Shown piece by piece: positions 4,063 through 45,200 of a stretch of 64,000 nt of DNA. Every line of letters begins with the position of its first letter. Position 1 is the first letter of the stretch. The stretch comes from Isoetes taiwanensis (taxonomy: Eukaryota > Streptophyta > Lycopodiopsida > Isoetales > Isoetaceae): the NCBI GenBank assembly GCA_021234155.1, contig JAJEKV010000017.1:10607525-10671524 (forward strand). Direction: 5' to 3'. The position numbers were made by a program, and so were the translations under genes. The notes beneath the pieces were generated by a model. That model saw only the letters and a program-made list of their open reading frames with translations. It was not told where the DNA came from and searched no databases.

Positions 4063-5582
4063 TGTGACGTCCCCTACTCATATACGGTGCACCCACCGTA
4101 TACAAACATGAGTTCATCCCCTATACCAGCTCCATGCTGATACAAGGCCCTCCACATATCACTGCAACCTTGACGAGTTCCAGTAGGAAGAATGAAGGGG
4201 TCATTTTACCCTGTCTCCCTCAGGGCCTACCTAGCTGCGGAAGCGTAACATACATGTCAGTATACATACATCAACATCACCTGACCATCACGAAGGATGG
4301 TTCACCACATATCTGCATAGACAGAGATCAGCACATCACATATGGAGATCCTATTCAAGGCCCCGACTCAAAGGGGAGGACTGACGGCTTGGGCCTCCAG
4401 AAGTCATTGCAGACAGAATTCATGGCAAATGGATTTGGCTGGCATAAGAACATGGCTTAGAGTAGTCCACTCCATCCGCCCCTCCTGTGCACACTTTGCA
4501 GAGTCGGTTGAAAAGTCTTGGGACCTGACTGTAGCCCGCCGAATGCATAGCCAAAGGGGCTGCTCCTGGGTTGCATCTCCCCAGTTCCGATGGGGCAGGT
4601 AGGGATTTCTCTCACCAGAGGCTAGCATGCTGACTCAAGGTGACTAGAGGGCCACTGCCCGTACTCAACTGAACTCCATGGAAGGTGTACACCATCCAAG
4701 AGTGTCGAACCCATGTAAAGCCCGCACGCAGTGGCAGAGCATTAGGTCTAGTGCACTTTAGTTCCCGATAGGCTTTACTACCAGAGGGACGTGATCATGA
4801 GTCAGGACATGTACCTCCTTGTAAGCCAGTCTGGTCCCGCCACCCACAACCAGGTGTGGCTCTTGTACACAGGCCAAATTTAATAGTGCATTAAAGAGGA
4901 CTAGCTAGTAGCATCAACTATTAGGCTTTTTGGGCCTCTACCCCCCTTCCCAATACAATGATTCCACAGAGATCATCATCATATACATATCATAGAAGAA
5001 CTAAAGAATAAGATTTAATCTAAATCACAGAAGTTAGGTTCTTTAGTTATGGCTCGATATCTAGAGGTCTAGGTGGCTGCTATGGGCAATTCAATAGGCT
5101 AAACCTACTTATTCTAAGCCTGGGGGGCGGATTAGACTATTGAATTGGCAAAATACATGATCCTTGGCTTGCTCCTCCTGCTCTGAATGCGTCCATGATG
5201 CAGAACTGCTTGAAGATGAAGCCCGAAAGGAAAGCTGATGGGCTAGGCTGCTCACACAGACTTCGGGAGTCGAGATTGGCTCTTGGAGCAAGCGAAATGG
5301 AGCTCTAGAAGGCTGTGGACGGAAATGGAAAGTTAGGGTTTGAATACCTTACATAGGCTATAAGTTAGGGTTAGGGTAACCAACGACCCTTGAGATGCCC
5401 GCTTATTATTTAAGTGGGTTAAAGTGCACACATGAATAAATGTGCACACACTTGCAAGTTGCCCCCTAGGGCGCTACTTGCTTAGCTACACGTCGGCGTA
5501 CACGTCAATCGGGATGGCGTGTACGCGTGAGGATGCAGTACAGTATACGTTCTGGGACCGTATACTGTGATGGAACGTCACA
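4063..5582 (-). repeat. 3' LTR of chromovirus
   Basis: It is 1520 bp, with 8-bp terminal inverted repeats TGTGACGT and ACGTCACA, and almost the same as 25388-26909. Palindromes lie near both ends: ATACGGTG/CACCGTAT at about 4081-4100; GCGTACACG/CGTGTACGC near 5505-5530; and ACAGTATACG (5540-5549) with CGTATACTGT (5559-5568). In element orientation the last two fall at the start of U3 and could be protein-binding sites or a cruciform; that is inference. Confidence 0.92.
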
Positions 5583-5596: not shown

Positions 5597-6350
5597 AAAT
5601 GATGTCGTCCGCAGCATCGTGGGTCTCCCCACCTTGGGATCTTCTTGTCCTGCAACCAACTTGATGCATACAATTTATTAATATTATACTTACACAATTA
5701 TCAGAATTACCCTAAAGTAATATTTTTAAAACATTACTACGACATTACATTATCCCAATGACTTATCAATTTATAACTTCATTAAAGCAAGGTGCTTACT
5801 AGCCTCACTTAATACAACATTTAAGTTTATCAAAATTTAGCAATTTCGTATAAAAATTATCTTTCCAGGTATCCTTCATTCCTTGCAACACATCCCAATG
5901 TCTTGTGTTGCAAGTCTTCGTAGCTCGACCTCCTTGCCCTCCAGAGCGCTCTATTGGCCTGCAGGTCGATAACACGTTAGTACAATTTTTAATTATTAAT
6001 AAAATTATGGTTATAAGGGGACCACCCATCTAATTAACTAAATGAATGCATGACTAATCTCCCGGCGTAGGAAGAGGATGCTTCTTCCATCGTGGCCGTG
6101 GTGACAGCGCCCTATAATGCCTATATCTCGCATGTCCTTTTCCTATGGACATGCTTACCTTACGGTGCAACATTGCTCATGTTCACCGTTTGCCTAACTA
6201 ATTCAAGCAGAACCACGGTCATGTCTACAATGACATTACACCACGTCCTAGAGATCACCGTGGTGGTCCCATAATCGGTTATTACGCATGCAACCCATAC
6301 TTAGCATAGGCTGCATGCGTAGATTAATCTTAACTACACATGAAATTAAT
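5597..6350 (-). other. chromovirus 3' untranslated region
   Basis: This lies between the pol stop and the polypurine tract. It is AT-rich without a supportable ORF. The second PPT-like copy is at 5626-5640. Confidence 0.5.
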
Positions 6351-9300
6351 CTACACTTCAATCGACATGCCTGAGCCGATTACTTCGGAGATGACCTTGC
6401 CGTCCAATTGCTCCATGAACTGCGGGTATTGCCTTATCAGGTCTTGCTTAAGTACCCACGTCGCGTCTTCCACCAGCAAGTGTTTCCACTTGACCAAATA
6501 TTGGAGAAACTCTGATCTCCTTGTCTTCTTGATCGCCTTATCAAGGATCAAGTCTGGGACTATCTCTAGCTGCTCTTCTATCATTTCCAACAATTTGGCG
6601 TGTCCAAGACTTCTTCTAGGTTTGGAGTATGCCTTCGGCAAACTCACGTGGAAGACTTTATGAATTTTCAGGTGTGCTAGCAGCTCTAACTTGTAGGATT
6701 GGTTACCTACTCTCTTGGCTATTTTGAAGGGGCCAGCCCACCTTGGAGCAAGCTTCTTACAATTTCCGATGCGGAGCTTTGCCTGCTTCACTTTGATCTT
6801 GAGCCAGACGTTGTCGCCAACCTGGAACTCTCTGACCGTCCGGTGCTTGTCAGCGACGCTCTTTTGTCGACTCCTTGCTGCAAGAAGATATCCTCGGACC
6901 TCTTCTACCAGTTGCTGCATGTCGGCCAACATTTGCTGCGAAACCTCTACCTTTGACACAGGATTGTGCCAAGTGTCTGGAGTTAGACATTGGTAGCCGT
7001 AGAACGGCGACATCTGGGATGATTCCTGCTTGGTGCTATTATAAGCGAACTCAACCAAGTGAATGTAATCTTCCCACTTACTCTGCTTGTTCCAGACATA
7101 GTTTCTTAGCATATCTTCCAAGATTCGGTTGGTCCGTTCTGTTTGCCCATCCGTCTAAGGATGATAGGCCGTGCTCATGGACAGCTTCGTCTGGATCATC
7201 GCAAAAAGGTCCTGCCAAAAGGCACTCATGAACTTCGGGTCTCTGTCAGAGATGATCTCTCTCGGCATGCCATGGAGCCTGAAGATTTCCTTTGTAAAGA
7301 GAGCCGATGTATCCAAGGCTGTGTCGGTGGTCCTGCAAGGCACAAAGTGTGCCATCTTCGACAGCTTGTCGACCACAACCATCAGAGTATCCTTTCCTCT
7401 TGCTGTCCTCGGAAGCCTTGTTATAAAGTCCATACTGATGACTTCCCACTTAGCGTTCGGCACCGCTAATGGTTCCAATGCTCCTGGAATTCGAAGCTGC
7501 TCTGCCTTCGTCTGCTGACATAGCTGACACTCTTTGATGTAGCGAGCTATCTGCTTCTTCATCCCTGGCCAATAATAACTGCGGCGCACTTTGAAATATG
7601 TCTTCATAAATCCTGCATGGCCAGCTATTGGACTGTTGTGGGTGTCGTGGAGAATCAACTTCCTCACTCCTGACGATTCAGGCATACACAACTTGTTCTT
7701 ATGGTACAAAAGGTTACCTTCCTTCTTAAAATTCTTGAAGGTCTCCCTCTCCTTATCTGTTCTTGCCTCTTTGCACATGCTCGCCCACACTTTCTTGAAG
7801 TCTGCATCTGTTGGCAAGGTTTCTTCGATCTTCTTTCCGAAGTCGCTGGTGAGCATCGAGATTGCGTTGCAGTGAACTCTTGTTGTCAGAGGATGCCTTG
7901 AAAGCGCATCTGCTACCACAATTGAGCTTCCCCGGCTTATAAACTATAACAAAATCGTATTCTTCGAGGAACTCCATCCACCTTCGCTGCCTCAGGTTGA
8001 GATGTGGTTGCGTGAACACGTATTGGAGGCTCTGATGATCCGTATCCAGCTAGAACTTCCTTCCCAACAGGTAGTGCCTCCAAATTCTTAGTGCTCTGAC
8101 AACTGCAAGCAACTCTTGATCATGAGTCGGGTAGCGCGTTTCGGCGTCGTTCATCTTCCGAGAGTCATAAGCCACTACCTGCTCTTCCTGCATTAGCACT
8201 GCACCTGTGGCAATTTTACTTGCGTCTGTCGCCACAAGTTTGTCCTTCTCGGGGTCGGGCAGGGTCAGGACGGGGACGGTTGTCAAAGCTTCCTTCAACA
8301 TCTCGAATCCTGCCTGGGCTTTCTTTTGCCAGTGATCTGCCCAATCCTTTACTTCTTCCGCCCTCGTCAAATCTGTTAGTGGGGCCGCTATTTTTGCAAA
8401 GTTCTTCACGAACTTCCTATAATACCCTGCTAGGCCGAGAAAGCTTCTGACCTCGTGGATGTTCTTCGGCGCCGGCCAATGTATGACTGCTTTGATCTTG
8501 GCAGGATCCGTCGCGAAATCCCCTCCGCCGAGATCACGTGCCCCAGATATTCTACCCTCTGCGTTGCGAAGTGGCACTTCGACAACTTAGCGTACAACTG
8601 GTGCCTTTTTAGTTTCTCGAGCACTTGCCTGAGGTGTTGTACGTGTTCTTTCAAGGATTTGCTGTACACTAAAATATCATCAAAGAATACTATAACAAAA
8701 GTATCCAAAAACTCCCTGAAGATGTCGTTCATAAGTCTCATGAACGTTGCTGGGGCGTTTGACAAGCCAAACGGCATTACGGTGAACTCGTAATGCCCAT
8801 ACCTGGTCCTGAATGCTGTTTTGTGGACGTCTTCTTCCTTAATCCTGATTTGATGGTACCCTGACCTCAGGTCTATCTTGGAAAAAACCTTCGCGCCTTG
8901 GAGCTGATCCATCAGGTCGTCCGATCTCGGGAGTGCATACTTATTCTTGATGGTGTGCTTGTTTAGCTGCCTGTAATCTATGCACATCCTCAAGCTGCCA
9001 TCCTTCTTCTTCACAAAAAGGATGGGTGCCCCAAATGTGAGACGCTAGGTCTAATGAACCCTAGGTCAAGCAACTCCTGCAATTGCTTCTTCAACTCAGC
9101 TAGCTCTTGCGTCGTCATCCTATACGACGCTTTGCTCGTCGGCTTCGTACCTGGTTCGAGTGCTATCTCACACTCGACTCCCCTGTAAGGAGGAAGCTGC
9201 TTGATCTCATCTGGGAAGAGATCATGGAGCTCCTTTACCAACTTAGCTACCTGCTTATGTTCCTGGCTTTCTTCTGACTCGGGCTCTTCGATCTGAAGCT

Positions 9301-9736
9301 TGAAGATATAGGCTACCTGCTCGCTTTTTATGCACTTGAGCAGCCGCTTACTAGACATACATTGCATGATAGGAGCAACTTCCTTACCTGCAATTTCTAT
9401 GATCTTGCCGTTGGGCGCCGTCAAGGTCACTTTACAATTTCCACAGTTGATGATGGCCTTTGCTGGAGCGAGGTACTCCATGCCGATGATCAAATCGTAC
9501 TTCCCGATGTTCATCACTTCTGCTCCCATTTGGATGTTGATCCCTGGCAAATCGATGTCGAAATTAATCCTCTTACCTGCCACGTGTCTCACTGCCCCGC
9601 TGGCTAACACCACGGGTCTCGGCTTTGACTTCAACGGCTTGAGCTTCAACATCTCGACCATTCTTGGGGACGCAAAGTTGTGGGTGCTCCCCGTATCTAT
9701 CAGGACTATAAAAGACTTGGCCTTGGCCGAGTACAA
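6351..9736 (-). pseudogene. chromovirus pol: protease, RT, RNase H, integrase, chromodomain (broken)
   Basis: In order on minus: retropepsin (FIVLIDTGSTHNFAS, catalytic D-T-G) near 9735-9660; RT with [12 protein letters not shown], the YHQIRIK region, [12 protein letters not shown] and the catalytic FFDDILVYS near 9020-8430; RNase H with [13 protein letters not shown] near 8240; integrase with an H-H-C-C zinc region (CQLC near 7515), MDFITRLP, SDRDPKF and QTERTNR as the D-D-E triad; and a C-terminal chromodomain around 6560-6400 (QYLVKWK, EDATW). Frame changes lie near 9037, 8560 and 7925, with in-frame TAG stops at 8050-8052 and 7154-7156, so no full polyprotein can be made. The domain order and chromodomain place it in the Ty3 chromovirus branch. 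The chromodomain keeps the central Trp but lacks the flanking aromatic residues of the HP1 cage, so methyl-lysine binding is not assured. Confidence 0.93.
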
Positions 9737-9752
9737 CAGAAAACCTGTTTTG

Positions 9753-10031
9753 CGTCAGAAAAATCGTCAGAAACCCTTTACAGAATAGGCAATTGCCCAG
9801 ACTCATATGGCTGACGCATATTCTGACGTATATTCTCTGACGAAAAATCGTCAGATTTTGCGTCAGAATTTTCGTCAGATCGTCAGATTTTTCGTCAGAA
9901 TTTGCGTCAGAATATTCGTCAGATTTAGCGTCAGAATTTTCGTCGTCGTATTTTTCATCAGAAATATTCGTCATAGCATGCGTCAGAATTACGTCAGGTT
10001 TTTCGTCAGAATTTTGTCACAATATTCGTCA
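9753..10031 (+). repeat. left CGTCAG subterminal array
   Basis: About 14 CGTCAG motifs in forward orientation and three reversed, mostly 10-13 bp apart and joined by short A/T spacers. Repetitive subterminal motifs bound by transposase are characteristic of CACTA/En-Spm elements. Confidence 0.85.
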
Positions 10032-15253: not shown

Positions 15254-15601
15254 CATTCTGACGAATATTTTGATGAATATACTGACGAAAAGAATCGTCA
15301 GAACATTCGTCAGAAGTTTCGTCAGATTAATCGTCAGAAGTATTCGTCACATTATTCGTCAGACTTTGCGTCAGATTAATCGTCAAAAATATTCGTCAGA
15401 TTTTTCGTCAAATTTTGCGTCACAAATTTCGTCAGGGTTTGCGTCAGATTTTGCGTCATTTTATTCGTCAGATTTTTCGTCAGAAAATTTATGCGTCAGA
15501 TTTTTCGTCAGAAAATTTATGCGTCAGATTTTTCATCAGAATTTTTGTCAGAACTTTTCGTCAGTTTTTGCGTCAGCATTTTCGTCAGAAAATTCGTCAG
15601 A
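15254..15601 (+). repeat. right CGTCAG subterminal array
   Basis: About 18 forward CGTCAG motifs plus variants (CGTCAC, CGTCAA, CGTCAT) with a spacing near 12 bp, in the same orientation as the left array. Only the outermost motif next to the right terminus is reversed, in keeping with the inverted terminal repeat. Confidence 0.85.
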
Positions 15602-15679
15602 TTCTCACTGGAAAAACACATAAGATTTTTCTGACGTATTTTTGGACGCAGAACAGGCATTCTCTTGTAGTGTTACCTG

Positions 15680-16921
15680 ATACTGATTTTCTGCTTGGTC
15701 TGAATCTATGGCTGCAAAGATGTGACACTCACCCTGAATGAAGTCTCGTGTTTCCCCGGCGTTGTCGTCAGGGGGAGTCTCCCATCCACCCATCTCTGCT
15801 GATGCCGCATTCATGACGAAAGGGCAGTTTGTTGTTCTATGGCCTGGCTAGAAGCACCTGAAGTAGAGCTGTTTCTCAATGCACTTCTGCCTCTTCTCCT
15901 TCGGTATTGCTTGCAAAAAGGATCGCACCGCTTTCGAATAATTCGACCCTTCTTGCTGCGGCTTATCCTTGAAGGATACCTGTTTCTTTTCCTGCTGCCT
16001 CCCATAACTGCCACTGTAGGGAGCTTTTGCTGGTCCTGGACTAGCTGCTCTAGGGCTATAACTCCCCGATGCGTTGCCCTTATCCTGGTAGTACTGGTGT
16101 TTCTGCCCACTGCTCGGAGGGCCGGATCCTTGCAGGCTGACTGCTTTTGATTCTGCTTCTGATACTATTCGAGGATTAATTGCTCTTACCAGCTTTCTTA
16201 TCTTGTTGTTTAATCCCTCGATGTATCCTTCCACTGCGTGGCGTTCAATCAGCTTCGGTACATAAAGCCTGAGTTTCATGAACTCCTCCGTGTACTTCTG
16301 GTTGCCCTGCTCTAGCCGATAGAATTGCTGCATCATGTGGCATTTGTGCTCCCTTGGCACATAGTGGCGCTTGAATGCCTTTGAGAATTTTCTGAATCTG
16401 CAGCTATCCCTGCTTAACCCATGGGCCTTGGCATAGCCCTTCCACCAAATTCTAGCTGCTCCTTTAAGGTTTGCTGTAGCCACCCTGCCTTTGTCTTTGT
16501 CCTTCATTCCGTATGCATTCCCATATTCGCTCATCTCGTCTAGCCAGACCTCTGCCTCCATGCCTGACCGACTGTCGCCTAAGAACTGTTCGAGCTTTCT
16601 TGCCTTCCACACATTGCCCAGTGCGGAATCTACTTTCTTCTGGTAGTCTGAGGTCCTTGTGTCCCTGAGTCTGCCATCTCTACGGTCCTGCACTTCCCCT
16701 ACCTCTTCCTCGGAATCGGAGTCCGAATCTGAACTTGTGTCGGAGGAGTCCGTGCTAGGGGATCTCCTTCTCTTGCTCTTCTTCTTATCTTTTCCCGTCT
16801 TTCGGGGTAGTGTTTGCGGCAGCTGGACGTTGTGATCTGGGTCAGTTGCTGCTTGCGCTGCCAATAAGGCCTTTATTTCTTGAAGTTCCGACCTCATCTG
16901 CGACATCTCTTCGGGAGTCAT
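15680..16921 (-). pseudogene. chromovirus gag (broken)
   Basis: The ATG at 16921 opens a 357-codon reading frame. After a coiled N-terminus (MTPEEMSQMRSELQEIKALL), a basic stretch and an Asp/Ser-rich acidic stretch comes a Retrotrans_gag capsid-like domain with EVWLDEMSEY, AARIWWKGYAK and MQQFYRLEQGNQKYTEEFMK. The tail is rich in Ser, Gly and Pro. The frame stops at 15848, inside what should be the zinc knuckle: the sequence around the stop has RCF, then P-G-H, then the last Cys, and the first knuckle Cys is a Tyr. Reading continues after the stop to about 15680, where the CACTA-like element interrupts it before the protease. Gag would package the genomic RNA. The knuckle damage and the stop make this copy non-functional. 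Confidence 0.88.
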
Positions 16922-17201
16922 GGGGTTGAATTCTTCCTACAGGTTCCTTGCTATATGTTGTCTGGCCGGAGTCTCTTCATTTCTATGGACTCGTCGGTCT
17001 TGTTCAGTTGTTCTTTGACCTCTAGCTGCATAAACAAGTAGGCCATTACAGTTAGCTTTGTTTGTTTTATTGCATTATATGTGTTTGCTAATATAGTTGT
17101 GGAAGCAGAATACATCAACAAAACATTTAGAATGCCAAACAAAATGTATTTATATATATATAGAAAACTTAGTTACAATGCTTCCGGGCTCGAGAGTCTA
17201 A
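16922..17201 (-). other. spacer between accessory ORF and gag
   Basis: AT-rich, with a short (TA)n stretch near 17150-17160. No hairpin pair or TATA cassette like those before the two accessory ORFs is visible here. Confidence 0.5.
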
Positions 17202-18790
17202 CTATTCTTGGAATCTCCGGCGGGATGGGTTATCCTGAAGGAACTTCTTAACTTGGGCCGTTCCTACCGAGCGTCCCAAGTTCCGGAGGATATTCGTTGG
17301 TGTTCCGCCCTGCAAGGCTGTCACCAAGTCTTCCACCCTGCGGTCGAAAGTGTAGGCCGCGGTCACTGCTAATCTTCCCTGCCGTCGGTAGGGTACCGCG
17401 AAGTCAAAGATATCTAGTGCCACCGTTCTCTTGACTAGGATGGCATGGTCAACTGATGGGATCAGCCGAGCATGCCTACCAAATCCTGAGAGTGCGATGA
17501 GCATGACTACTCCTTCTTCGCCCCTTGGGCTGAATTTGCGGTGGATGACCGCTATTCTCCCGTCCAACAGCAGAGGAAGGTAATACCTTAGCGACCTGTC
17601 CCTGCCTGTCGCTGTTGATTCTTCGTCGGGTCGGGCACCAGCTCTATGTCTTCTCGCATATTCATCGACGTGAATCTCCGTCAGGTCTCTGTGGTCCCTT
17701 ATTGTTGATGCGATTCTTGTCAGGTCGATCTCGCCTCTTCTCTGAACACCTGTACAAGTTGGTGTCGAAGAACTTGGTATCAAAATATTTGTGGTTTTGC
17801 TACGGATCCCCATCCGTTCTTGGATGGCGTAGAATTCTTCTTCTGAAGGCAGGTCCCGAGCTGTCATCATTTGCCGGATGCTGCTATATGCCTGGATATC
17901 TGAAGTCGACTCCCCTGTGTAAGTGTCGGCTTCTCTTACGTGGATTGGGAAGTCGGAAGCCTCTCGATCAATGAACTCATCCAGGTCTGGTTGTTGCCGC
18001 AGGAGGTGCAGTAACTCGTCGCGCCTGTACTCCCTGACTCTGCATTCGGGGAGGTTCTGGATGTCATTCAGGAGCAGGTACTCCTGGCCGTTGATGATGA
18101 TGGGGGCTAGGCTTGTGATACCTAGCCCAAGCGGGGGAGCGATCCTGTGGGTCTGCAGGTCCTAGTCGAAAAACTGTATCTCCTGCTCTGCTTGTTGCCG
18201 CTCTTGGTCGGGGTTGAACTCGACGTAGTCTTCGTCATCTGAGTCGAGCTCTTCGTCTTCGGCTCTTCCTCCTTGTTCCGCTTGATATTGCAAAAGGAGC
18301 CGACCTTGGCTGAAGAGGCTAAGGGGTCCACATCCATGGCCGGGATGGAGGGTTCCCTGGTTGGGTTCAGGGCATGGGAGAGAAAGATGGCTAAGGCAGC
18401 GGTATAGGAGAAATATTTCGCTCTATTTACTGTCATGAGCATATAGTCTGGCATCCTAGCAACCTTGTTGTTCAGGTACTTGGCAATGTTCGGGACATCA
18501 CCCAAGGCTGCTTGGAGGGATTGCTTAGGAACAAAATACCCTGTACAAGGTGGAAGCTGCACTAAGGAGGGTCCTACCCTAGCTTGGAAGTCAGTTATGA
18601 CTTCCATATAGGATGGGGTTGTCTGCAAGGTGGCTTGGATGTCTATCTCCTTCTGGAAAACTTCAAAAATGGCATTGATATCAGCCTCAGCCACATGAGA
18701 TAGTTGCCATTGATCTCGACTGACTGAGACTAGCAAACAGCTCTTGAAGCGCCTAAGGGGTTTGGAAAATCGCCTAAAAGCTGGGAGCAA
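17202..18790 (-). pseudogene. chromovirus accessory ORF of unknown function
   Basis: A coding stretch of about 530 codons lies on minus between the H3-like ORF and gag. It is read in three pieces: 18790 to about 18300 (SYMEVITDFQARVGP, YMLMTVNRAKYFSYTAALA); an acidic Glu/Asp part and a run through LAPIIINGQEYLLLNDIQN, with a TAG near 18164 and a frame change near 18300; and 17870-17202 (RDRSLRYYLPLLLDGRIAV through AQVKKFLQDNPSRRR). No clear ATG begins it; 18790 is only where the open frame starts with TTG, right after the TATA box. Its leader resembles the leader of the H3-like ORF (CTCCC, CTTT, AGGCGATTTT), so the two promoter-leader regions are duplicates. I do not recognise a domain. Extra ORFs ahead of gag are known in some large plant Ty3 elements. 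Confidence 0.65.
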
Positions 18791-18822
18791 ACCTGTAAGA
18801 TGCTAACTGAGATATGGGGGTC

Positions 18823-18830
18823 TATTTATA
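18823..18830 (-). promoter_or_regulatory. TATA box before the unknown accessory ORF
   Basis: TATAAATA on minus lies within CCTATAAATAGACCC. The same 14-base context occurs at 20760-20767 before the H3-like ORF. It lies about 200 nt downstream of the hairpin pair at 19031-19296. Start-site position is inferred, not seen. Confidence 0.6.
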
Positions 18831-19030
18831 GGAAAAAGGGAAAAACCCTAATTTTTTGAAAACTTAGAATTTTTTTTTTTGGATTTGGCAAATCTCACCT
18901 ATTTTGAGGTCAAAATGAGGATTTGAAGGTTAGTTTGAGGGTATGAGCATGCTTAAGACTATCTAATGAACCTACTGCAACAAGGTTGAGGTCAATTGGA
19001 GGTAGCATGAAAGAGATAATGCTGAGAATA

Positions 19031-19093
19031 CTCACGGTGTGCGCTAGAAGGCTGACCTAAATTTTAGGTCGAGGTCCTGGCGCATACCGTGAG
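19031..19093 (-). promoter_or_regulatory. 63-bp hairpin, copy 1
   Basis: The outer arms CTCACGGTGTGCGC and GCGCATACCGTGAG pair at 13 of 14 positions. The inner palindrome is GACCTAAATTTTAGGTC. It is one of four copies of exactly 63 bp that flank the H3-like ORF. Confidence 0.85.
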
Positions 19094-19233
19094 TAATTTG
19101 GCCCTATTTGGTCAAAACTTATCTAAACAGGATGAACTAAGGGTCAAAACATGATGGTCTCATCGAGATATGCAAGACTGACCCCTTATTTGCCCAGTTT
19201 GGAGATGTTTAGGACACTTTTTGATGTGAAATA

Positions 19234-19296
19234 CTCACGGTGTGCGCCTGGGGCCTGACCTAAAATTTAGGTCAATGCTCTGGCGCATATTGTGAT
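19234..19296 (-). promoter_or_regulatory. 63-bp hairpin, copy 2
   Basis: Arms CTCACGGTGTGCGC and GCGCATATTGTGAT, inner palindrome GACCTAAAATTTAGGTC. It lies 203 bp from copy 1. Its outer arm is the most decayed of the four. Confidence 0.82.
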
Positions 19297-19441
19297 TAAA
19301 TTTTCACTCCTTGACCATATGAAGTCCATTTTAACTAAAACAAAAAGCAAATACTGCTAAATCAACCTCATTAACAACATTTATGAACTTAGAACTTGTT
19401 TTACAAAACTTTTTATTTCCAAAAATTATTATTTACAAGAC

Positions 19442-20657
19442 CTAACTTTCTCCTTTAATGGAACTTGCCAAGTGCATGTCCTTGGTCATCAATGTTACTC
19501 TCTTGGCATGTAAAGTGCTGCACCAACTTCTGCTCTGCTGCTTTCTGTAAGGCTAGCAGCATTTCGCCTGTGACTCTCATGCTCGTGTCGAACTCTTGTA
19601 CAACCTCCTTGACGAGTTTGGCGAATGGTGCTCGGGGGATGAAGAGGCCGTAGCTTCTCTGAAAATGTCGAATCTCTCGGACTGCTTGGGACAGTTTCAA
19701 TCCGGGCTTCCTTGCTACTGGCTTCTTGGGGGGTACTGGCTTCTCTGGAGGCGGCTTGAGAGTCTTCTTCTTGGATGGCCGTCCTCCCTCGACGTAAGTG
19801 ACCTTGTTTGCCTGATAGTAGGAGTTGTAGACCTCCCACTTCTTCATGTACTCTTTGTAGGCCTTTAGTTTCTTCTGGTAGACCCTGCGATGGTCTACCA
19901 TGTACGACTCCCGGGCAGGTCGTTTGGATCTTTCTCCTTCTCCCACGTGAGGTAGGGTGGGGGTGCCTGTACCTGCTGATCCTCGGCCGCCGGTTTTGAG
20001 GAGCTCCCTACTTCTTGGTCTCCTCTGGGGAAGGGCTGGTAATCCTCATCATCTAAGTCGTCAAAGGATGGGGGCTGGTCGGGCTGCCGTTCCTTGATGA
20101 CGAGCTTGACCGTGGGTGTCTTCTTTAGTTTCTTTTTGGGCTCCTCCTTGCCCTTCCCTTTGAGCTTCTTCTTTGCTTCTGCCTCCTGTTCTTCTCGCTT
20201 CCTTTTCTTCTTGGTCGTTCTCCTCTTCTTGCGTTGTGACTTCGCTTCCTGCATTTGGATCGAGGCCTCGAGTTCTTCTTCCAGGGTGGGTTCGGGAGTG
20301 GGCTCCTTTTGTTCTTCCTGCTACTTGGCAGCCTGCTCCTGTTCTGCCCTCTTCTGCTGTCGTATCCTCTTCAATTTGCTCATATACTCTGCGGGTTTCT
20401 TCGTCCATTGAACCCTCAGAGTCAATGTCTGCTTCTTCGTCTAAGCGCTGGTTGATGATGTCGACCAGCTCGTCTAGGGATTCTTGCCTCGACCCCTCTT
20501 CTTGTGACTCGACAGAAGTACTCTCCTCTGCTGATGGAAGAGGGTCTCCTCCTGCGAGAAGCTGCTCCCGAAGTATCTGCTGAATCCTCCCCCTGTCTTG
20601 GGCGCTGGGCTGTTCGCCTGGTCGATATTTGCGTGCAGTCTGTTTGGTGCGCGCCAT
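19442..20657 (-). pseudogene. chromovirus-encoded histone H3 / CENH3-like protein (frameshifted copy)
   Basis: The ATG at 20657 opens with MARTKQTARK, identical to the histone H3 N-terminus through Lys9, then departs (YRPGEQPSAQ). A linker of about 300 residues follows: acidic (ELVDIINQRLDEEADIDSE), then Lys/Glu-rich with a likely nuclear-import stretch (KKRRTTKKKRKR), then proline-rich. The C-terminal part is an H3 fold: alpha-N REIRHFQRSYGLFIP, RAPFAKLVKEVVQEF, then LLALQKAAEQKLV and, in another frame, HAKRVTLMTKD to the stop at 19442. Up to alpha-2 I count about 27 identities in 57 positions with canonical H3. EIRHFQ and the IP-APF segment resemble plant CENH3 rather than canonical H3. Frame changes lie near 20400, 19930 and 19511, with a TAG near 20325. 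At 19511 about 23 nt are missing relative to an ordinary H3 between alpha-2 and loop 2. About 405 codons, against 136 in H3. It lies inside the LTRs, without introns. Confidence 0.88.
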
Positions 20658-20759: not shown

Positions 20760-20767
20760 TATTTATA
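20760..20767 (-). promoter_or_regulatory. TATA box before the H3-like ORF
   Basis: TATAAATA on minus lies within GCTATAAATAGACCC, about 103 nt before the ATG at 20657. That would leave a 5' leader near 70 nt if transcription starts about 30 nt downstream. It is a duplicate of the TATA context at 18823-18830. Confidence 0.65.
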
Positions 20768-20872
20768 GCTTGGGCAAATTTTAGGTCAAATTCTAAATTG
20801 CTCATTTTCATGAGTCAAGGCACATATTAACTTAAAACATGTACTTACTTCAGAGTTTTCTAAGTAAAATTA

Positions 20873-20935
20873 CTCATGGTGTGCGCTAGAGGGCTGATCT
20901 AAATTTTAGATCGAGGCTCTGGCGCATACCATGAG
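20873..20935 (-). promoter_or_regulatory. 63-bp hairpin, copy 3
   Basis: Arms CTCATGGTGTGCGC and GCGCATACCATGAG; inner palindrome GATCTAAATTTTAGATC. Relative to copy 1 both stems change in matched pairs (C-G to T-A), so pairing is kept. Confidence 0.87.
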
Positions 20936-21086
20936 CATTTTTGCATTTTTTAACTAAAAATATATAAGTTCTAGACATATTCCTAGGGGTGTGATATACA
21001 ATTCTAGCTAAACCTTACCTTAAAATTCGATTTAGCATCTGATCTTGTTCAAATTCATTAAGTTTCAAGGTAAATAGGGTGAGTTA

Positions 21087-21149
21087 GTCATGGTGTGCGC
21101 CTGGGGTCTGACCTAAAATTTAGGTCGATGCTCTGGCGCATACCATGAG
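21087..21149 (-). promoter_or_regulatory. 63-bp hairpin, copy 4
   Basis: Arms GTCATGGTGTGCGC and GCGCATACCATGAG; inner palindrome GACCTAAAATTTAGGTC. It is 214 bp from copy 3. The nested LINE begins within about 25 bp of its right end. Confidence 0.85.
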
Positions 21150-21159
21150 CAATTTCCAC

Positions 21160-22416
21160 ACTTCCTTCTGAAAGGGCAATGGGTGTCGTGCAAAGAATGA
21201 AGAAAAGTGATGATGAAGATACTGCTTAAGATTCACCGGATCGGAGATAAGAGTGCCATCTGGCAACACCAAAGAATGTATAGAAGTGGCGAGTTTCCTT
21301 CTTCTTGCAGCCGCAAAAAAGAACCGGGTACATCTATCTCCGTCCTTGAACCACTGCAACCCTGCCTTCACTTTGGCTTCAGTAACTTTTACAGTTTCTA
21401 TAGTCTTGATCTGAGATAATAACTCCTTTTCTCTTACTCCACTAGTATGGCCACGAGCGTGGAGTACTTCTAATTCCTGGTACAATGCAGTCAATAGTCC
21501 TCTAGCTTCAGCAGCTCTGACTCTCCCATACTCTTTTGCAAATGACTTCACTGCAGACAACGCTGCGACAACCCCAGACATGCCCCTACGAGGTGAGAAG
21601 GCCCGAGACCAAGCCCGACTACAGCCAAGTTTGAACTCATCATCCTCCAAGTACTTGCAATTAAGCTTAAAGTAGGTCCTGGTAGGTCGATGACAATTAG
21701 CCACATCATTAGTTAGAAGTTGTGGATTATGATCAGACACAGAGCTATCCAAAAGATTTGAGCGACGAAAATCCGCTAGCCGAGCAGCTGCACAAGTATT
21801 AAAGTATCCTCTATCATGCCTTGCATAAGCTCTACCAGCTCCTGTCCAACCATTACACCACGTAAAGGACTGATCACCATCAATCTCTATAAGCTGACCA
21901 TCATGTAAAAGGCATAGCCATTGTTCTCGCTCGAATCCTTGCACCACTTCAGAACCACGACCACTTCTATCTCTTTCCAACTCGACCATATTGAAGTCGC
22001 CAACGAGCAACCATGCAACATTCTGTCCAAGCTGGAGAACTTTACTCCTCAGAGTTGCCCACAAAGCACCATGCTGACGAGGTCTATTATGAGCATACAC
22101 ATTTATCAAACCCCATTCTTGGCCCTTATCTTTCCATTAGATTATTATCCACCGCCCGAACCTATCTGTTTGAGTAAAAGTGACATCCACAGACGACTTC
22201 CATGCAGTAAGCACACCAGCCTTAGATGCATCAAATGGACACCAAGACATTATAGTCCCGGCCCAAATACATTAGCTACTTTATGTACATCACCATGGCA
22301 TTTATGCTCTTGGAGGCAACAAAAGGTCGTAGAAAACTTAGACAGGTAAAGAGACAACCTGCTTCTTTTACTTGGGGAAGAAGCCACTCCCCTCACATTC
22401 CAAGACAACAGGTTCA
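21160..22416 (-). pseudogene. LINE ORF2 endonuclease domain (inverted part)
   Basis: The minus strand starts at about 22416 with MNLLSWNVRGVASSPSKRSR, a typical start of an L1 exonuclease-endonuclease-phosphatase domain. LLVGDFNMVE and SVSDHNPQLL supply catalytic Asp/Asn and Asp/His positions, and the region before RT follows (ITVNLKQ-like part, YLHHHFSSFFARHPLPF). A stop follows the first 55 residues, and frames shift near 22130. The domain would nick target DNA for priming; this copy is inactive. Confidence 0.85.
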
Positions 22417-22531
22417 TGTGGCCAAAATATTATGTTCCACCTCCATACCAATAGAGCCAGCCTCAACCATGTCCATCTCGCATGGTTCTGAAGGGAGGTC
22501 AGCCCACCTCGTCCTGGAAATTGGCAAGGGG

Positions 22532-22653
22532 GAGCCTCCTCTCTGTTCCACCCTTCCATTGTTTTGTTCAGCACTTGGTGAGGGAGAGCCTCCTCTCTGC
22601 TCAACCCCCCCATTATTTTGTTGGGTAGCTGGCAAGGGAGAGCCTCCTCTCTG
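22532..22653 (-). repeat. 54-bp tandem repeat upstream of LINE endonuclease
   Basis: GAGCCTCCTCTCTG occurs at 22532, 22586 and 22640, exactly 54 bp apart, with similar sequence between. On minus the units could encode 18-residue repeats (REEALPCQLPNKIMGGLS and two variants). It lies at the 5' limit of the inverted LINE piece. Confidence 0.85.
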
Positions 22654-22654
22654 C

Positions 22655-25080
22655 GTCGCATTGTTTCTGAAGAGCAGAGGTTGCTTCTTGAGTCTAATAT
22701 TGTGAAGGGGGGCTTAAAAGCAGCTGTGGCTCTCTTGAAAAGGGACAAATGCCCGGGTCTTGATGGCTTTCCTATTGAATTCTTTCAGAAGTGCTGGGAC
22801 TGGTTGGAGGATGACATATATGATGCCTTTTGTGAGTTTCAGAGATTTAGGAGCCTTGATAAGATTTTGAATACAGGTTGTATCTCTCTCATTCCAAAGA
22901 GCAAGGAACCCAAGACTATTTCTGACTGGCGACCTATTACATTGCTTTCCTCTGTGTACAAGATCTTTGCTAAGACATTGGCAGAAAGGGTCCGAGACAT
23001 CTTGGCTGACACTATCTCGTCAACACAATCTGGCTTTCTCCCTCGTCGTTGTATTCTCAACAACGTGGTTGCTGCATATGAAGGAATATATTGGGCCCGG
23101 TTACAGGGTCATAGAGCAGTGTATCTTAAGCTTGATTTTGCTAAAGCTTACGATAGTGTTGATTGGGGCTTCTTGGAGAAGTGTCTTCTTGCACTTGGGT
23201 TTGGGGAATCATTCACAAGGAATGTCATGAAGCTCCATACATCAGCCAGATCTACTGTCCTTTTCCAGGGCGAGCCATCAGATATTTTTGTAGTGGGTAG
23301 AGGAATTCGACAAGGTTGTCCCTTAGCACCCTTGCTTTTCACAATTGTGGCAGAAGTATTGTCCCAGCTCTTCTCCGTGGCTACCCAAGATGGCGTTATT
23401 CAAGGCCTCTCAATGGACGATGGTTCTCAAGAGGTATGTAACCAATATGCCGATGACACTTTTTTGTTCCTAATTGCCAAGGTTGAGAATCTTCGTAATG
23501 CTAAGCTATTATTAGACACATTCTCCTTAGCATCAGGAGTTCTTGTAGGGTGGCAAAAATGTACAGCTTTGTGGACGTTGGATAGTCCCATCCCTCCCTG
23601 TATTTTGGACTATCCATGGAAGATTCTTCTGCATGGCAATACCACAAAGTTGCTTGGTATCCCAGTTGGAATTCACGTCTCTACTTCAGATGCTTGGGAT
23701 GAAATCATTAGTGGGTTGCAAAAGCACTTGTTTTGGTGGAATACAGCTAAACTGTCCATGCCCGGTAGAATCACTGTGGCTAAATGTGTTCTTAGTAATA
23801 CTCATATCTACATGGCGTCTGTTCTATTAGCTCCGCAGTGTAAGATGGAGGAGATTGTGCGTATTGTCAGAAATTTTATTTGGGGTGGAAATGAGTTAGG
23901 AGCGGTGGTCAAGGTAGCTTGGGCGAAATGCATTAGACCTAAGGCAGCTGGTGGTCTTGGTATGTTGGATTTTCACCTCCAAAGCAAGGTGATGATATCA
24001 AAGTTCATTTGGAGGATTTTCATTGGTAAGGATGATTCTCCTGGCCTAAGGTTGTTGGTGCAGTCGATTCAGCATTGTCTCCCATTTCATAAGGCCACCA
24101 TTAAGCCCCTCCTTCCTTGGGCTTTGCTTTATCATATGCATCCGTATCCTAATGCTTCTCCCTTTTTAAAGGGGTTGCTTGCTGCTTGGGACACTGTCAG
24201 GTCTCTTTTCCATATTAATCCTGAGGCATGCCTTCAGTTGTCCACTCCATGCTGGTGGATTCCTTTGCAGGACACTCCAGAGAATGTGCCTCTAAGTGTG
24301 GTTGTTCATCCAAAGACACAACGACGATGGATAGCAGCTGGTATCAGCACTATTGCATCTTGGTATGAGTCTGGTCATCTCATGTCATGGGAAGCATTTA
24401 GAACAAAGTTCTTGTTGTATAGATGGGACAGAGTAATCTGGAATCATATTGCTGCATTGTTGCCACAGGATTCTGGTCCACAGATTGAGGTAGTCGTATG
24501 GGGTTGCCATTAGGATATCCAGCCAGGGCGGTTTGTGTCTTCTGTGTATAAACTGCTTTTGCATTCTGCCTCCATCTAATAGGTGGCATCTTCAGGTAAT
24601 GGAAAAGTGTTTGGATATGGGTATGGGATAAGCTGCTTCATCACAAAGTAGTAGTTTTGTGGTGGCAAGTGATCCATAGATGCCTCAGAGTCAACAGGTT
24701 AGTCCATAAAATGGATAATCGGATTTCAGAGCTCTGTCCTTTATGCCAGCAAAGGGTTGAGAGTATTGAGCATTGTTTTTTCTTGTGTGAGCGGCTTCGG
24801 CAGGCATGGTCTTGGTTGTTGACCCTTTTTGGAACGTCTCTATCCTGATGCTTGGCCTAAACTACGGAAACGAGCTTTTCATCTCGCATGTGGCTGGCTT
24901 TTATGGTCAATCTGGAAGAGAAGGAGGTTGTTTATCTTTAAGGGCGTAGATACTGCAGATGAGATTGTTCTTCAGTGGGCGCAAAATAAAATTGTTATGG
25001 CTTACAATTGTTCTTCTCTTGATCAAGAGAAGAAAGTACTGATCTGGCATACTTACCTTCAGATTCATTCTTTTGCATAG
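22655..25080 (+). pseudogene. LINE ORF2 reverse transcriptase and zf-RVT
   Basis: A long uninterrupted frame runs to 24513. It holds RT motifs KCPGLDGFPIEFF, LKLDFAKAYDSVDW, GRGIRQGCPLAPLLF, the catalytic NQYADDTFLFL and the thumb region with LLGIPVGI. After a stop at 24511-24513, other frames give the zf-RVT part (LWWQVIHRCLRVNRL, CPLCQQRVESIEHCFFLC) and the C-terminal WLLWSIWKRRRLFIF. It is the best-preserved L1 copy in the window, yet it is disabled by the stop and by its inverted 5' part. Confidence 0.9.
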
Positions 25081-25213
25081 GCAGGTGGTTGTGCTCAGTT
25101 GGATCGGTTTGTCCACTGGGGTTATAATCCTGTCTTTGCATTTTATGTTGCTCTGGTTTTTAGTTGGTGAATAAAGCTTGTCGTCCTTCAAAAAAAAAAA
25201 AAAAAAAAAAAAA

Positions 25214-25374: not shown

Positions 25375-25386
25375 GCTCTGATACCA
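25375..25386 (-). other. primer binding site, initiator Met-tRNA
   Basis: TGGTATCAGAGC on minus, one base after the 5' LTR, is the classic plant PBS complementary to the tRNA-iMet 3' end. It fixes element orientation and the LTR edge. Confidence 0.95.
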
Positions 25387-25387
25387 C

Positions 25388-26909
25388 TGTGACGTCCCCT
25401 ACTCATATACGGTGCACCCACCGTATACAAACAGGAGTTCATCCCCTATACCAGCTCCATACTGATACAAGGCCCTCCACGTATCACTGCAACCTTGACG
25501 AGTTCCAGTGGGAAGAATGAAGGGGTCATTTTACCCTGTCTCCCTCAGGGCCTACCTAGCTGCGGAAGCGTAACATACATGTCAGTATACATACATCAAC
25601 ATCACCTAACCATCACAAGGATGGTTCACCACATATCTGCATAGACAGAGATCAGCACATCACATATGGAGATCCTACCCAAAGCTCCGACTCAAAGGGG
25701 AGGACTGACGGCTTGAGCCTCCAGAAGTCATTGCAGACAGAATTCATGGCAAATGGATTTGGCTGGCATGAGAACATGGCTTAGGGTAGTCCACTCCATC
25801 CGCCCCTCCTGTGCACACTTTGCAGAGTAGGTTGAAAAGTCTTGGGACCTGACTGTAGCCCGCCGAATGCATAGCCAAAGGGGCTACTCCTGGGTTGCAT
25901 CTCCCCAGTTCCGATGGGGCATGTAGGGATTGCTCCCACCAGAGGTTGGCATGCTGACTCAAGGTGACTAGAGGGCCACTGCCCGTACTCGACTGAACTC
26001 CATGGAAGGTGTACACCACCCCAAGAGTGTCGAACCCATATGCAAAGCCCGCACGCAGTGGCAGAGCATTAGGTCTAGTGCACTTTAGTCCCCGATAGGC
26101 TTTACTACCAGAGGGACGTGATCATGAGTGAGGACATGTACCTCCTTGTAAGCCAGTCTGGTCCCGCCACCCACAACCAGGTGTGGCTCTTGTACACAGG
26201 CCGAATTTAATAGTGCATTAAAGAGGACTAGCTAGGAGCATCAACTACTAGGCTTTTAGGGCCTCTACCCCCCTTCCCAATACAATGATTCCACAGAGAT
26301 CATCATCATATACATATCATAGAAGAACTAAAGAATAAGATTTAATCTAAATCACAGAAGTTAGGTTCTTTAGTTATGGCTCGATATCTAGAGGTCTAGG
26401 TGGCTGCTATGGGCAATTCAATAGGCTAAACCTACTTATTCTAAGCCTGGGAGGTGGATTTGACTATTGAATTGGCAAAATACCTGATCCCTGGCTTGCT
26501 CCTCTTGCTCTGAATGCGTCCATGATGCAGAACTGCTTGAAGATGAAGCCCGAAAAGAAAGCTGATGGGCTAGGCTGCTCAGACAGACTTCGGGAATCGA
26601 GATTGGCTCTTGGAGCAAGTGAAATGGAGCTCTAGAAGGCTGTGGACGGAAATGGAAAGTTAGGGTTTGAATACCTTACATAGGCTATAAGTTAGGGTTA
26701 GGGTTTCCAACGACCCTTGAGATGCCCGCTTATTATTTAAGTGGGTTAAAGTGCACACATGAATAAATGTGCACACACTTGCAAGTTGCCCCCTAGGGCG
26801 CTACTTGCTTAGCTACACGTCGACGTACACGTCAATCGGGATGGCGTGTACGCGTGACGATGCAGTACAGTATACGTTCTGGGACCGTATACTGTGCTGG
26901 AACGTCACA
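25388..26909 (-). repeat. 5' LTR of chromovirus
   Basis: It is 1522 bp with TGTGACGT and ACGTCACA ends, matching 4063-5582 with about 50 differences. It should hold the promoter for the genomic RNA. Confidence 0.93.
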
Positions 26910-29380
26910 AATGAAGTGCCCATCATGATTCACAATCTGTAAGAATGTCGACAAAATTTTCCGCTTAACTATGCCAGACAAGCTTGAGACTTGGTAAGCC
27001 TGCCACAACTTATACCTCAAGATCGGAACCAACCGAAAAGGGCTAAGCACTGCATTCTGAAAGACCTTCACTCTCCGTCTTTTCCAAATCAACCATAGAA
27101 GCCAAGCTCTGCATAAATGGAACGCCTGCTGCTTGGCCACTGGCCAACTGCTAGGAAAAACTCCCAAGAGAATCTTCTGACTGCACAGTGAAGACCCAAA
27201 GAGGGCTCTCACCCAGGACCAAGCTGCCCCTACCTCTGTGCATAGGACAAAGCAGTGCTCAATGGTCTCTCAACGCCTCCCACATAAAGGGCATGTTTCC
27301 GCTACCTGAGGCTTGAACCTGTGGACTCGGATAATCACCCTGAGGCTACGGTGCAAGATCTGCCACAAAAGGGTACGGATTTTAGGAGGAGGCAATGTAT
27401 TCCACACCCACTTCCACATGGCGGGCCACTTACTCCCTGGAAGCTTAAGCGACCACTTATCCGAAGGCGGCAACGTGTCCTGAAGCGCTAGAAGCCCATA
27501 AGCCAATGCTACAAACTGAGATGCATCAAGTCCACTATGCGACTTCCAAACGTGATTGACTTGAGAAGACAACTGCAATGATAGCATTAGCAATCCTGGC
27601 CCAAGTCCGTACGTCCCACCGCCGAAGGCCAAATCGTTCCCTAAAAAACTCCCACGGCGCCAGATGACCCTCCCAATACCAGTCACGGATGGATGTTACC
27701 CCTGCAGTAATCCATCGGCGCTGAGTACCTGGGTGTAGGGAAGAGGTCAAGGGAGATGCAGAATCCAAGGGTACCCAGAGAAAGGGCGATGAGGCTACCA
27801 TACACCTGCTAGGGTCCAATGAAAAGAGAACCTTGACCACCTTCCGTGCCTTGAGAGACCCTTAAGAAAAGGCGGCATGAGGGAATGGCCGCAAATCCTC
27901 AAACGTATCCCACGACAACCGAGCCGAATTGCTGGCTTCCTAAACACAATAGAGTGGCGGCGCATCGGCGGCCAACAGAGCCAAACAACGCCGGATGAAT
28001 TTCAACACGGAACCTTCGTGTGCAACGACACATCAAGCATACCTAAGCCCCCGCCTTTTCGGGGCGCACACACTTCCACCATGCGACCTTCACTTTGTAG
28101 CCCCCTCCTCATTTCCTCCCCAAACAAAATTGCGAATGGTGTCATCCAACTCCTTAACCACACTTTAAAGGCGCAAGTATGCGAGGTCTGCATAAACATG
28201 AGTGCTTCTGAGCAATCGACTTGGCTACCGAGAATCCTACCGGACATGGTGAGTTTACTTCCCCTCCACCGCCTCGATGTCTTTGCTTAAGATTCTCAGA
28301 ATGTCTCCTCCAAATTGCCCTAGCATTAATGTCCAAGCCAAATGGTATGCCTAACAGTTTGGCGGTGTGTGTGGTGGCGGTGTAAGAGCCCGAGGAAACC
28401 GACTCAACCACGCGGGAGGAGGTTCCTCCAAGCACCCACATGGCCGGAGCACCGACCCGGTTAAGCAAGCACCACGAAGCTAAAGAAAAGGCATCCAAAA
28501 TATTCTTGGTTGCCCGGAGATTGGACTCATCTGCATGAAGAAAGAGGAATGTATCATCCGCAAAATTGACCGCAAACCATTTATGACCCATCACCCATGC
28601 GGAGACCTTGCACCACATTGTCAGCAACTGCCACCTGAAAAAGCTGCGAAAGAGCTTATGCCACTATAGTGAACAGAAAGGGGGCCAACGGACATCCTTG
28701 CCTAATGCCTCGGCCCACAGAGAAGATTGAAGAGGTCTCACCACGACACCACATCGCCGCCCCTAGCGGACGCGTCGCGACTTCATAACCGCTTTCCCCG
28801 AAAGTAGGTCCACACCCAAAGGCACGCATCATATCCGCCAAGAACTCGCTAACCGACAATCGCCATAAGCCTTGGCAAAGTCCAGCTTAAGAAAAACAAG
28901 GGGCTGCCTCATCCTACGAGCCCAATGCACTCCCTCAAAAGCAGCAGCCACATTATGAAGAATATTTTGCTGATGGAGAAAACCAGACTGCTCTGGGCTA
29001 ATGGCATGAACTAGTACTGGCTTAAGCCTCTCCGCCAAACCTTAGCAATGATTTTATACACTACAGACAAGAGAGTAATAGGCCTCCAGTCATTGATGGT
29101 TTTAGGATGCTTACATTTGGGTATAAGTGAAATACAACCTGTATTCAGTAGAGGATGCATCGAGTTATTTCCCAAAAGATCCACATACACCTGCACCACC
29201 GAGTCCCCCACCCACTTCCAGTACTGCTGAAAAAACTCCACTAGTAAGTCCAATCCAGGACACTTATTCCGAGCCAACAGGTGGCATGCGTCCCCCAACT
29301 CCTGCCCTGTCAACGGCTCCTCTAAGCTCTGTCTTTGAAGGGCTGAGATTCTTGGCGATACCTTGGCCAGCACCAGCTCC
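26910..29380 (-). mobile_element. 5'-truncated L1 LINE body (continues at 3973-4062)
   Basis: On minus, split over several frames, are KCPGLDLLVEFFQQYW and TGCISLIPKCKHPKTINDWR (29388-29011), FLKLDFAKAYGD, GRGIRQGCPLAPFLF (28859-28656), VNFADDTFLFLHADESN (28627-28154), and the C-terminal WLLWLIWKRRRVKVF (27212-26910). The endonuclease is missing, so the copy was 5'-truncated on insertion. It has many stops and frameshifts and is older than the twin-primed LINE. The chromovirus has cut it in its 3' UTR. Confidence 0.9.
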
Positions 29381-29398
29381 TTGTGCATTGTTTCTTGC

Positions 29399-29482
29399 TT
29401 TGATCTCTGCAGAAAAAAGCTGCAGCTAAAGCAACTATTCTTTGCTCTCTATAGAAAAAAGTTGCAGCTAAAGCAACTTTTA
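29399..29482. repeat. 42-bp tandem duplication
   Basis: Two consecutive 42-bp units share AGAAAAAAG, TGCAGCTAAAGCAACT and a CTCT lead-in, with about seven differences. Confidence 0.8.
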
Positions 29483-44840: not shown

Positions 44841-45200
44841 TGATATTTGGAAGGCAGATTTAAGCTCAAGATCTGTGAACCGGTCTTTTTCGCCTCCAAG
44901 CCCTCGAAATTCGTTCAGAGCCATTTTCCCCTTTTGAAATCCCCTGTTTAGTGCTGTTCTTGGCAAATCCGTGCCGAAATTAGTTTATCTGATGGGTTCT
45001 TGGCATGTTTTGGGCCGATCCGATAGCTTTGAGCTATGATTTAGTTGTTGAATCAGGTGTATTGGCTGGATCTTGGCATGACTGGCAGTTAGGATTCTTG
45101 AAAAAACAAGCTCGATATATCCCACAGGCTCGATTTGCAACATCAAGGTATAAAAGCAATAGCAAAATCTACATTATTAATTAATTACGTGCTATATCCA
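44841..45200 (-). repeat. left (3') LTR of small element
   Basis: 360 bp, matching 48789-49185. The right copy has an extra segment of about 20 bp (CTTCAAAGCAATCGATCCGT) and a few smaller insertions. The exact start is uncertain by five bases because TAATC precedes both copies. Confidence 0.75.

Follow-up and report, generated by a model that had tools for sequence, protein, structure and literature searches.

The window, a stretch of 64,000 nucleotides of the Isoetes taiwanensis genome, carries on its minus strand a Ty3 chromovirus with paired LTRs and a PBS (4063-26909). The Ty3 chromoviruses described here from this genome carry a histone H3 gene behind the 5' LTR and PBS, ahead of all their other genes. 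On the minus strand, the order in the window element is 5' LTR, PBS, an apparent nested LINE, H3 ORF, ORF2, gag, protease, reverse transcriptase (RT), integrase, and chromodomain, with the following features:

25388-26909, minus strand: 5' LTR, 1,522 bp, pairing with 4063-5582
25375-25386, minus strand: PBS TGGTATCAGAGC, one base inside the 5' (right-hand) LTR
21150-25213, unstranded: apparent LINE copy nested between PBS and H3 ORF, with approximate limits and an inverted 5' part
20869-20952 and 21083-21166, 19027-19110 and 19230-19313, unstranded: two pairs of palindromic repeats of about 84 bp, repeat family D5
20760-20767, minus strand: TATAAATA, located some 100 bp ahead of the H3 ORF ATG, suggestive of a possible internal promoter
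19442-20657, minus strand: H3 ORF (decayed copy), with MARTKQTARK start, charged linker of about 300 residues and H3 fold
20628-20657, minus strand: MARTKQTARK, the same ten residues as the start of host H3
19442-19691, minus strand: H3 fold from alpha-N to alpha-3, broken by a frame change and about 9 missing codons before HAKRVTLMTKD
18823-18830, minus strand: TATAAATA upstream of ORF2, again suggestive of a possible internal promoter
17202-18802, minus strand: ORF2, uncharacterised protein, between the H3 ORF and gag, in two frames in the window copy
15848-16936, minus strand: gag (Ty3 capsid; Pfam Retrotrans_gag E 1.1e-10, Ty3_capsid 1.8e-10)
6351-9754, minus strand: protease, RT, integrase, and chromodomain, in several frames in the window copy
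4063-5582, minus strand: 3' LTR, 1,520 bp

The two LTRs share 1,476 matches, with 43 substitutions in 1,519 aligned sites and 3 gap events, and the element is flanked by the 5-bp pair AATTA/AATGA, which looks like a mutated target duplication. The PBS is presumably that of the initiator Met-tRNA. Pfam families recognized within 6351-9754 are RVP_2, RVT_1, Integrase_H2C2, rve, SH3_Tf2-1, and Chromo (E 1e-7). The hallmarks of Ty3/Gypsy chromoviruses are thus present, namely an LTR pair, a PBS, gag, the PR-RT-RH-IN order, and an integrase chromodomain, with the RNase H known from two related loci, L022 and L011. The original prediction had placed the H3 ORF among the LTRs, PBS, and gag of a Ty3 chromovirus. 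The LTR pair, TGGTATCAGAGC, and gag and PR-RT-IN-chromodomain regions on the same strand were all found, and the H3 ORF does lie between PBS and gag, but so do two features that had gone unmentioned: ORF2, between the H3 ORF and gag, and the apparent LINE, between the PBS and the H3 ORF.

This apparent LINE, seemingly inserted with twin priming, comprises an endonuclease-like ORF on the minus strand (21120-22136; Pfam Exo_endo_phos E 0.0084, under the family cut-off), an RT-like ORF on the plus strand (22582-24513), and a poly-A stretch at about 25190-25213. Another LINE-like stretch at about 27000-29400 (minus strand) seems to have been split by the insertion of the chromovirus itself. Between gag and protease, CGTCA-type tandem repeats (9868-9969 and 15283-15635) bracket 5.3 kb without long ORFs, perhaps another nested insertion separating the two genes. 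Elsewhere, the window contains a Utp14 gene fragment (38734-39603, Pfam E 3e-36) and a 161-bp direct repeat (44980-45140 and 48960-49120, 96%) that encloses a region containing a reverse transcriptase-like RNase H remnant (45181-46416).

The H3 ORF begins with the ATG of MARTKQTARK at 20657 and ends at 19442 with the stop after ...SIKGES. The H3 N-terminus, linker, and H3 fold were recovered on the minus strand at exactly the coordinates first proposed, though not as the single open frame that had been claimed: the copy contains one stop in its middle part and three frame changes, and has lost about 9 codons relative to its siblings. A comparison with histone-fold profiles had been suggested as a check, and Pfam Histone matches the window fold with E 3.1e-12 and 47.2 bits (cut-off 26.4); H3 chains from the PDB match it with E 8.8e-12. 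A single-sequence AlphaFold model of the window piece shows helices at the expected positions of alpha-N, alpha-1, and alpha-2 with a pLDDT of 56, and a Foldseek search with this model returned no histone at a useful score, so that the case for H3 in the window rests on sequence. A random ORF is ruled out by the profile E-values and by dN/dS, and misassembled or tandem host H3 genes by the presence of LTRs, PBS, ORF2, and gag-pol in register.

The genome searched has 1,110 contigs with 1,658,258,908 bases in total. Used as a DNA query, the window ORF gave 1,604 candidates, of which 40 places were scored, the window included; there are hence at least 39 further places of the window type (W), 77-94% identical to the window ORF. 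Twenty of these 39 copies were examined. MARTKQTARK stands unchanged at the start of 7, and another 11 begin with a version altered at one or two positions. One copy (L045) has an open frame running from the ATG through all of the stretch examined, and two others (L031 and L035) are likewise open except in their first part; stops or frame changes interrupt the remaining 17. A DNA search with ORF2 (40 scored of 3,342 candidates) placed it 624-912 bp downstream of the H3 ORF, on the same strand, at 10 of the 40 listed W places, and 6-15 kb away at three more.

A second set of elements was reached by a genome search with Pfam Histone, which gave 8,705 first-look candidates for any core histone; 150 were scored, all of them over the cut-off. 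With 164-165 bits, the first 15 resemble canonical H3 in score, and canonical host H3 was read in eight loci. Among the other 135 scored places, 55 lie in open frames of at least 300 residues and 36 in frames of at least 400, the longest reaching 494. Twenty loci with frames of at least 442 residues were taken from the 150 scored places, and each holds a 411-459-residue frame with the H3 fold at its C-terminus. They belong to three related groups, A, B, and C, whose proteins of 404-459 residues fuse a different N-terminal domain to the H3 fold. Eight more loci came from the search for CENH3. Six of them are open group-C frames, which measure 404-420 residues counted from the start methionine; a seventh belongs to group C too but is interrupted by a stop, and the eighth is a broken A-like copy.

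The surroundings of these genes are those of the window element. Across the 20 A-C loci, the PBS 12-mer TGGTATCAGAGC lies upstream of the H3 ORF in 14, ORF2 follows the H3 ORF directly in 19, and gag/pol domains are found downstream, within 10 kb, in 16. Pfam identifies gag, protease, RT, RNase H, and integrase in both L022 and L011, and a chromodomain in L011; the LTR pair of L022 is 96.7% identical over 1,649 positions, and that of L011 93.7% and 96.9% in two parts. L011 is itself an H3-bearing element without ORF2, in which gag-pol directly follows the H3 ORF.

Neither type of protein has the canonical H3 plan, in which a tail of about 40 residues is joined directly to the fold. In W, ARTKQTARK is followed by about 300 residues, and in A-C a different N-terminal domain takes the place of the tail. 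The element proteins are therefore H3-like fusions rather than canonical H3. The A-C proteins lack the ARTKQTARK end and keep neither K9 nor K27 in its exact ARKS context; a degenerate tail-like stretch is what remains. Their folds, compared for three members (L022, L025, and L028), agree with host H3 at 84, 85, and 88 of 100 residues, respectively. No significant similarity links the W protein to A-C outside the fold.

How far the H3 fold has spread can be gauged from a 35-base pattern for IHAK[R/S]VTIM[P/T]K[D/E], which occurs 661 + 622 = 1,283 times genome-wide, host H3 genes included and regardless of whether the copies are intact; its reversed control occurs 0 times genome-wide. A histone H4 query of the same genome gave 69 candidates and 43 matches, 16 of them full-length in frames of 107-146 residues, and revealed no amplified family, as against 6,148 candidates when the orchid CENH3 P0006, which is related to H3, served as a comparable protein query. 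By these sequence comparisons, the H3 gene is present in at least four chromovirus lineages (A, B, C, and W) and in very many copies.

ORF2 also links the lineages. Window ORF2 matches no Pfam family over cut-off, and is related to the ORF2 of A-C loci (blastp E 5e-9), of which a translated search at E 1e-5 reaches only 2 of 20. Partial matches relate the rest of the window element to the other H3-bearing loci, with gag 50-61% identical, and RT up to 85% and integrase up to 81% identical to A-C loci. Searched as single members, the N-terminal domain and ORF2 gave best E-values of 0.38 and 0.12 against Pfam, with no convincing family, and against the PDB a best E-value of 0.53 and no match, respectively. 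The D5 palindromic repeats are 71-82% identical to the reference copy, and one pair lies upstream of the H3 ORF and the other upstream of ORF2. Since both genes are thus preceded by a palindrome pair and TATAAATA, the arrangement hints at duplicated internal promoters. TATA-like words precede ORF2 in 17 of the 18 loci with a located ORF2 start, and in 9 of 20 loci they lie no more than 760 bp ahead of the H3 ORF, but they are not relied on here because the spacers are AT-rich and the counts lack a shuffled control. In L022, a small extra ORF with a TATA-like word upstream lies between ORF2 and gag (about 5740-6210 in gene orientation).

Relatives were also sought in protein databases. Of the 132 candidates that the read-through query of the window ORF drew from 5.8 billion proteins, 8 matched at E<=1 (best 4.8e-9); these are long-tailed H3 variants from other sources. 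In the same collection, the 163-residue frame had one match at E<=0.001 among 10 candidates, and the N-terminal part of L022 had none at E<=0.01 among 5,608 candidates. A scan of IMG/VR confirmed no relative. An environmental protein on a 5.1-kb contig (P0004, 335 aa, ENA) combines MARTKQTARR, a long charged linker, and an H3 fold.

The original prediction had likened the window gene to CENH3. CENH3 is marked by a longer loop 1 than H3 and by a tryptophan near that loop. W aligns to host H3 without gaps through loop 1, whereas a one-residue gap separates it from P0006, and it lacks the loop-1 tryptophan of the orchid protein. Four copies share 45-49 of 89 fold positions with host H3, and two copies share 34-35 of 76 with P0006; W also starts with ARTKQTARK. 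Only LLIPRAPF, identical in W and P0006, speaks for the CENH3 label, which loop 1, tail start, and identities do not support. The host CENH3 itself was not recovered in the genome search, in which the amplified H3 family swamps the matches; for this reason a CENH3 origin of W is called unlikely, and not more than that.

In the tree, W forms an isolated branch (99/99), and a 73/78 branch, not starred, sets A, B, and C together on one side. A single origin for A, B, C, and W is not rejected by the tree test (p-AU 0.187). In an earlier tree, the 20 A-C copies grouped with 91/93, again not starred, and the window copy was a long branch with its highest identity to a fungal protein, P0009. The history read from these trees may be one of a single capture with fast change in W, or of two captures.

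Selection was estimated as dN/dS by the Nei-Gojobori method, pooled over pairs. For fold, N-terminal domain, and linker, respectively, the values are 0.035, 0.103, and 0.204 in group A (14 copies, 91 pairs), 0.025, 0.148, and 0.132 in group B (5 copies), and 0.047, 0.069, and 0.270 in group C (7 copies), all from sets biased toward intact copies because they were chosen by score and open frame. The W set, by contrast, was chosen by DNA similarity, decayed copies included (20 copies and the window). Here dN/dS is 0.156 for the fold (codon bootstrap on 11 of the 21 rows, 0.092-0.199), 0.227 for the linker (0.178-0.291), and 0.336, given without an interval, for the first 13 codons, a weaker constraint than in either linker or fold. 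Read in the wrong frames, the W alignment gives 0.87-1.42, and third positions are about 2-3 times as variable as first and second positions. Fold comparisons among the groups and with host H3 find synonymous sites close to saturation (pS 0.75-0.94), so the acquisition is far older than the present copies. As judged from codon changes, the element H3 is kept under purifying selection in four lineages. The proposal that a chromovirus took up an H3-type gene is thus upheld, the gene being shared by many copies and kept by selection. Two outcomes that had been named as speaking against it, an ORF confined to one copy and neutral decay only, are refuted by the further W places together with groups A-C, and by fold dN/dS of 0.025-0.047 in A-C and about 0.15 in W.

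What the protein does is best approached through the residues that it keeps. R49, R69, R83, H113, R116, and D123, which we take to be DNA- or histone-contacting positions in H3, are the commonest residues in all four groups, so that the product can probably pair with H4. The residues examined are largely kept in A-C, and C110, H113, R116, D123, and L126 are commonest in W too. W is changed at R63, F84, and R128, presumably also contact positions, and several of its changed positions are ones that we assume touch DNA in H3. The most likely reading, to which we give about even chances, is that the product of the element H3 ORF would be made, pair with host H4, and be built into nucleosomes as an element-encoded H3 variant. 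The copies and their linkage, the element anatomy, selection, the kept residues, and the lack of any such spread of H4 suggest this reading, whereas the three contact changes in W and the model pLDDT of 56 suggest caution. Nucleosomes containing A-C proteins could resist silencing of the element, because the ARTKQTARK end and the exact K9/K27 ARKS contexts are gone, or could hold element DNA or the integration complex on chromatin. In W, the ARTKQTARK end on its long linker might in addition serve as bait for tail readers and writers, perhaps including the chromodomain of the element's own integrase, but a special role of this end is disfavoured by the dN/dS of its first 13 codons. The main function may also lie in the long N-terminal domains, since these match no known family.

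Other explanations fit part of these data. The protein might act as a decoy that soaks up H4, H3 chaperones, or tail-binding silencers such as H3K9 methylation readers and writers, and so blunts silencing during a burst. The W copies would suit this role, since their long and highly charged linker bears ARTKQTARK or a close variant of it, and since they are changed at several positions that presumably touch DNA in H3 yet keep H113, R116, and D123; we nevertheless consider it rather unlikely, as the three A-C folds resemble host H3 beyond what titration would seem to need, A-C have no ARTKQTARK end, and the tail end is the least constrained part of W. A role in the particle or on cDNA, with the fold compacting element RNA or DNA or aiding the pre-integration complex and the N-terminal domain docking on gag or integrase, would account for the linkage to ORF2 and gag-pol in the same element and for the fusion to a conserved uncharacterised domain under selection (N-terminal domain dN/dS 0.07-0.15). 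It is unlikely in our view: selection is strongest on the H3 fold itself, which suggests H4 as the partner, and Gag normally supplies nucleic-acid chaperoning. Targeting, in which special nucleosomes would mark landing sites to be read by the integrase chromodomain, so that elements insert where their own H3 has already been laid, is quite improbable; the same elements do carry a chromodomain (window and L011) together with the H3 protein, and W keeps the TARK context of K9, but A-C have no canonical K9 context. Finally, a captured host H3 that merely hitch-hikes without function, as in some fungal hAT elements (PMC6710886), would agree with the stops or gaps in the window copy and most W siblings examined, but is very improbable and, for the family's past, is refuted by dN/dS far under 1 in four lineages, by the excess of third-position changes and the wrong-frame control, both from copies collected by DNA similarity rather than open frame, and by the 36 of 135 scored non-canonical places with open frames of at least 400 residues.

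Extending the element-encoded H3 variant reading, the elements could form a self-made chromatin system, in which their H3 builds distinctive nucleosomes, possibly on their own copies, that escape or redirect silencing and are recognisable by their own chromodomain integrase. We put this forward tentatively, as a doubtful possibility; if true, it would give a retroelement its own private histone code.

Few host genes are as closely guarded as those of the core histones, and the control of retrotransposons works chiefly by methylation of histones and DNA. A large retrotransposon family with its own selected H3 suggests that elements alter or exploit the packaging of host DNA. A retroelement H3 under purifying selection over several lineages offers a directly testable case of intervention in nucleosome composition, and the element H3s provide many natural variants for asking which H3 positions can change.

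A search of open-access PMC papers found no histone in a retrotransposon, in agreement with the earlier statement that no retrotransposon with such an ORF had been described. The novelty of an H3 cargo holds for retrotransposons and not for transposons generally, as capture of H3 by hAT elements has been published (PMC3538342 and PMC6710886). Related cases are found in several other systems. Orchid Ty3/Gypsy elements with an AlkB (m6A demethylase) ORF are likewise plant Gypsy LTR elements with an extra ORF from a host regulatory protein, but their cargo is an RNA demethylase and they have Ogre/Tat features (PMC9289625); the accompanying screen of 121 angiosperm genomes reported 15 unusual domains, with no histone named in the text examined. 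The giant Burro Gypsy elements of planarians have likewise captured several regulatory domains, which are MATH, BIR, ankyrin, and BCL2-like, and "histone" occurs 0 times in the main text of that study (PMC6431247). The chromoviruses of non-seed plants, including the Tcn1 clade, are, like those described here, chromodomain Ty3/Gypsy elements of lycophytes (PMC2864245), and "histone H3" has 0 occurrences in the main text; "Histone" is also absent from the main text of the Isoetes taiwanensis genome paper (PMC8566536).

Single core histones also travel on DNA viruses, as bracovirus CvBV-H4, xenomavirus H3, and NCLDV H3s (reviewed in PMC9145170). As in the elements described here, one eukaryote-derived core histone with a host-like fold, sometimes with a long N-terminal extension, sits on a mobile genome; unlike them, the carriers are DNA viruses or polydnaviriforms, and the word retrotransposon is absent from the main text of that review.

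The closest parallel is provided by the fungal hAT DNA transposons, in which, as in these chromoviruses, an H3-like gene is held inside the ends of a transposable element and amplified. Pyrenophora tritici-repentis has 26 near-identical H3L genes with ESTs (PMC3538342), and hAT-captured H3 occurs in six Mycosphaerellaceae, with hundreds of copies in Pseudocercospora fijiensis and every extra H3 copy RIP-inactivated (PMC6710886). Those carriers are class II DNA transposons whose copies are recent and near-identical (Pyrenophora) or RIP-inactivated (Mycosphaerellaceae). The Isoetes elements, in contrast, are plant LTR retrotransposons, with LTRs, a PBS, and gag-pol instead of terminal inverted repeats, and they form several old lineages with long N-terminal fusions and purifying selection on H3. 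Capture of H3 by a mobile element is thus already known; what is new here is its capture by an LTR retrotransposon, as a fusion, under long-term selection.
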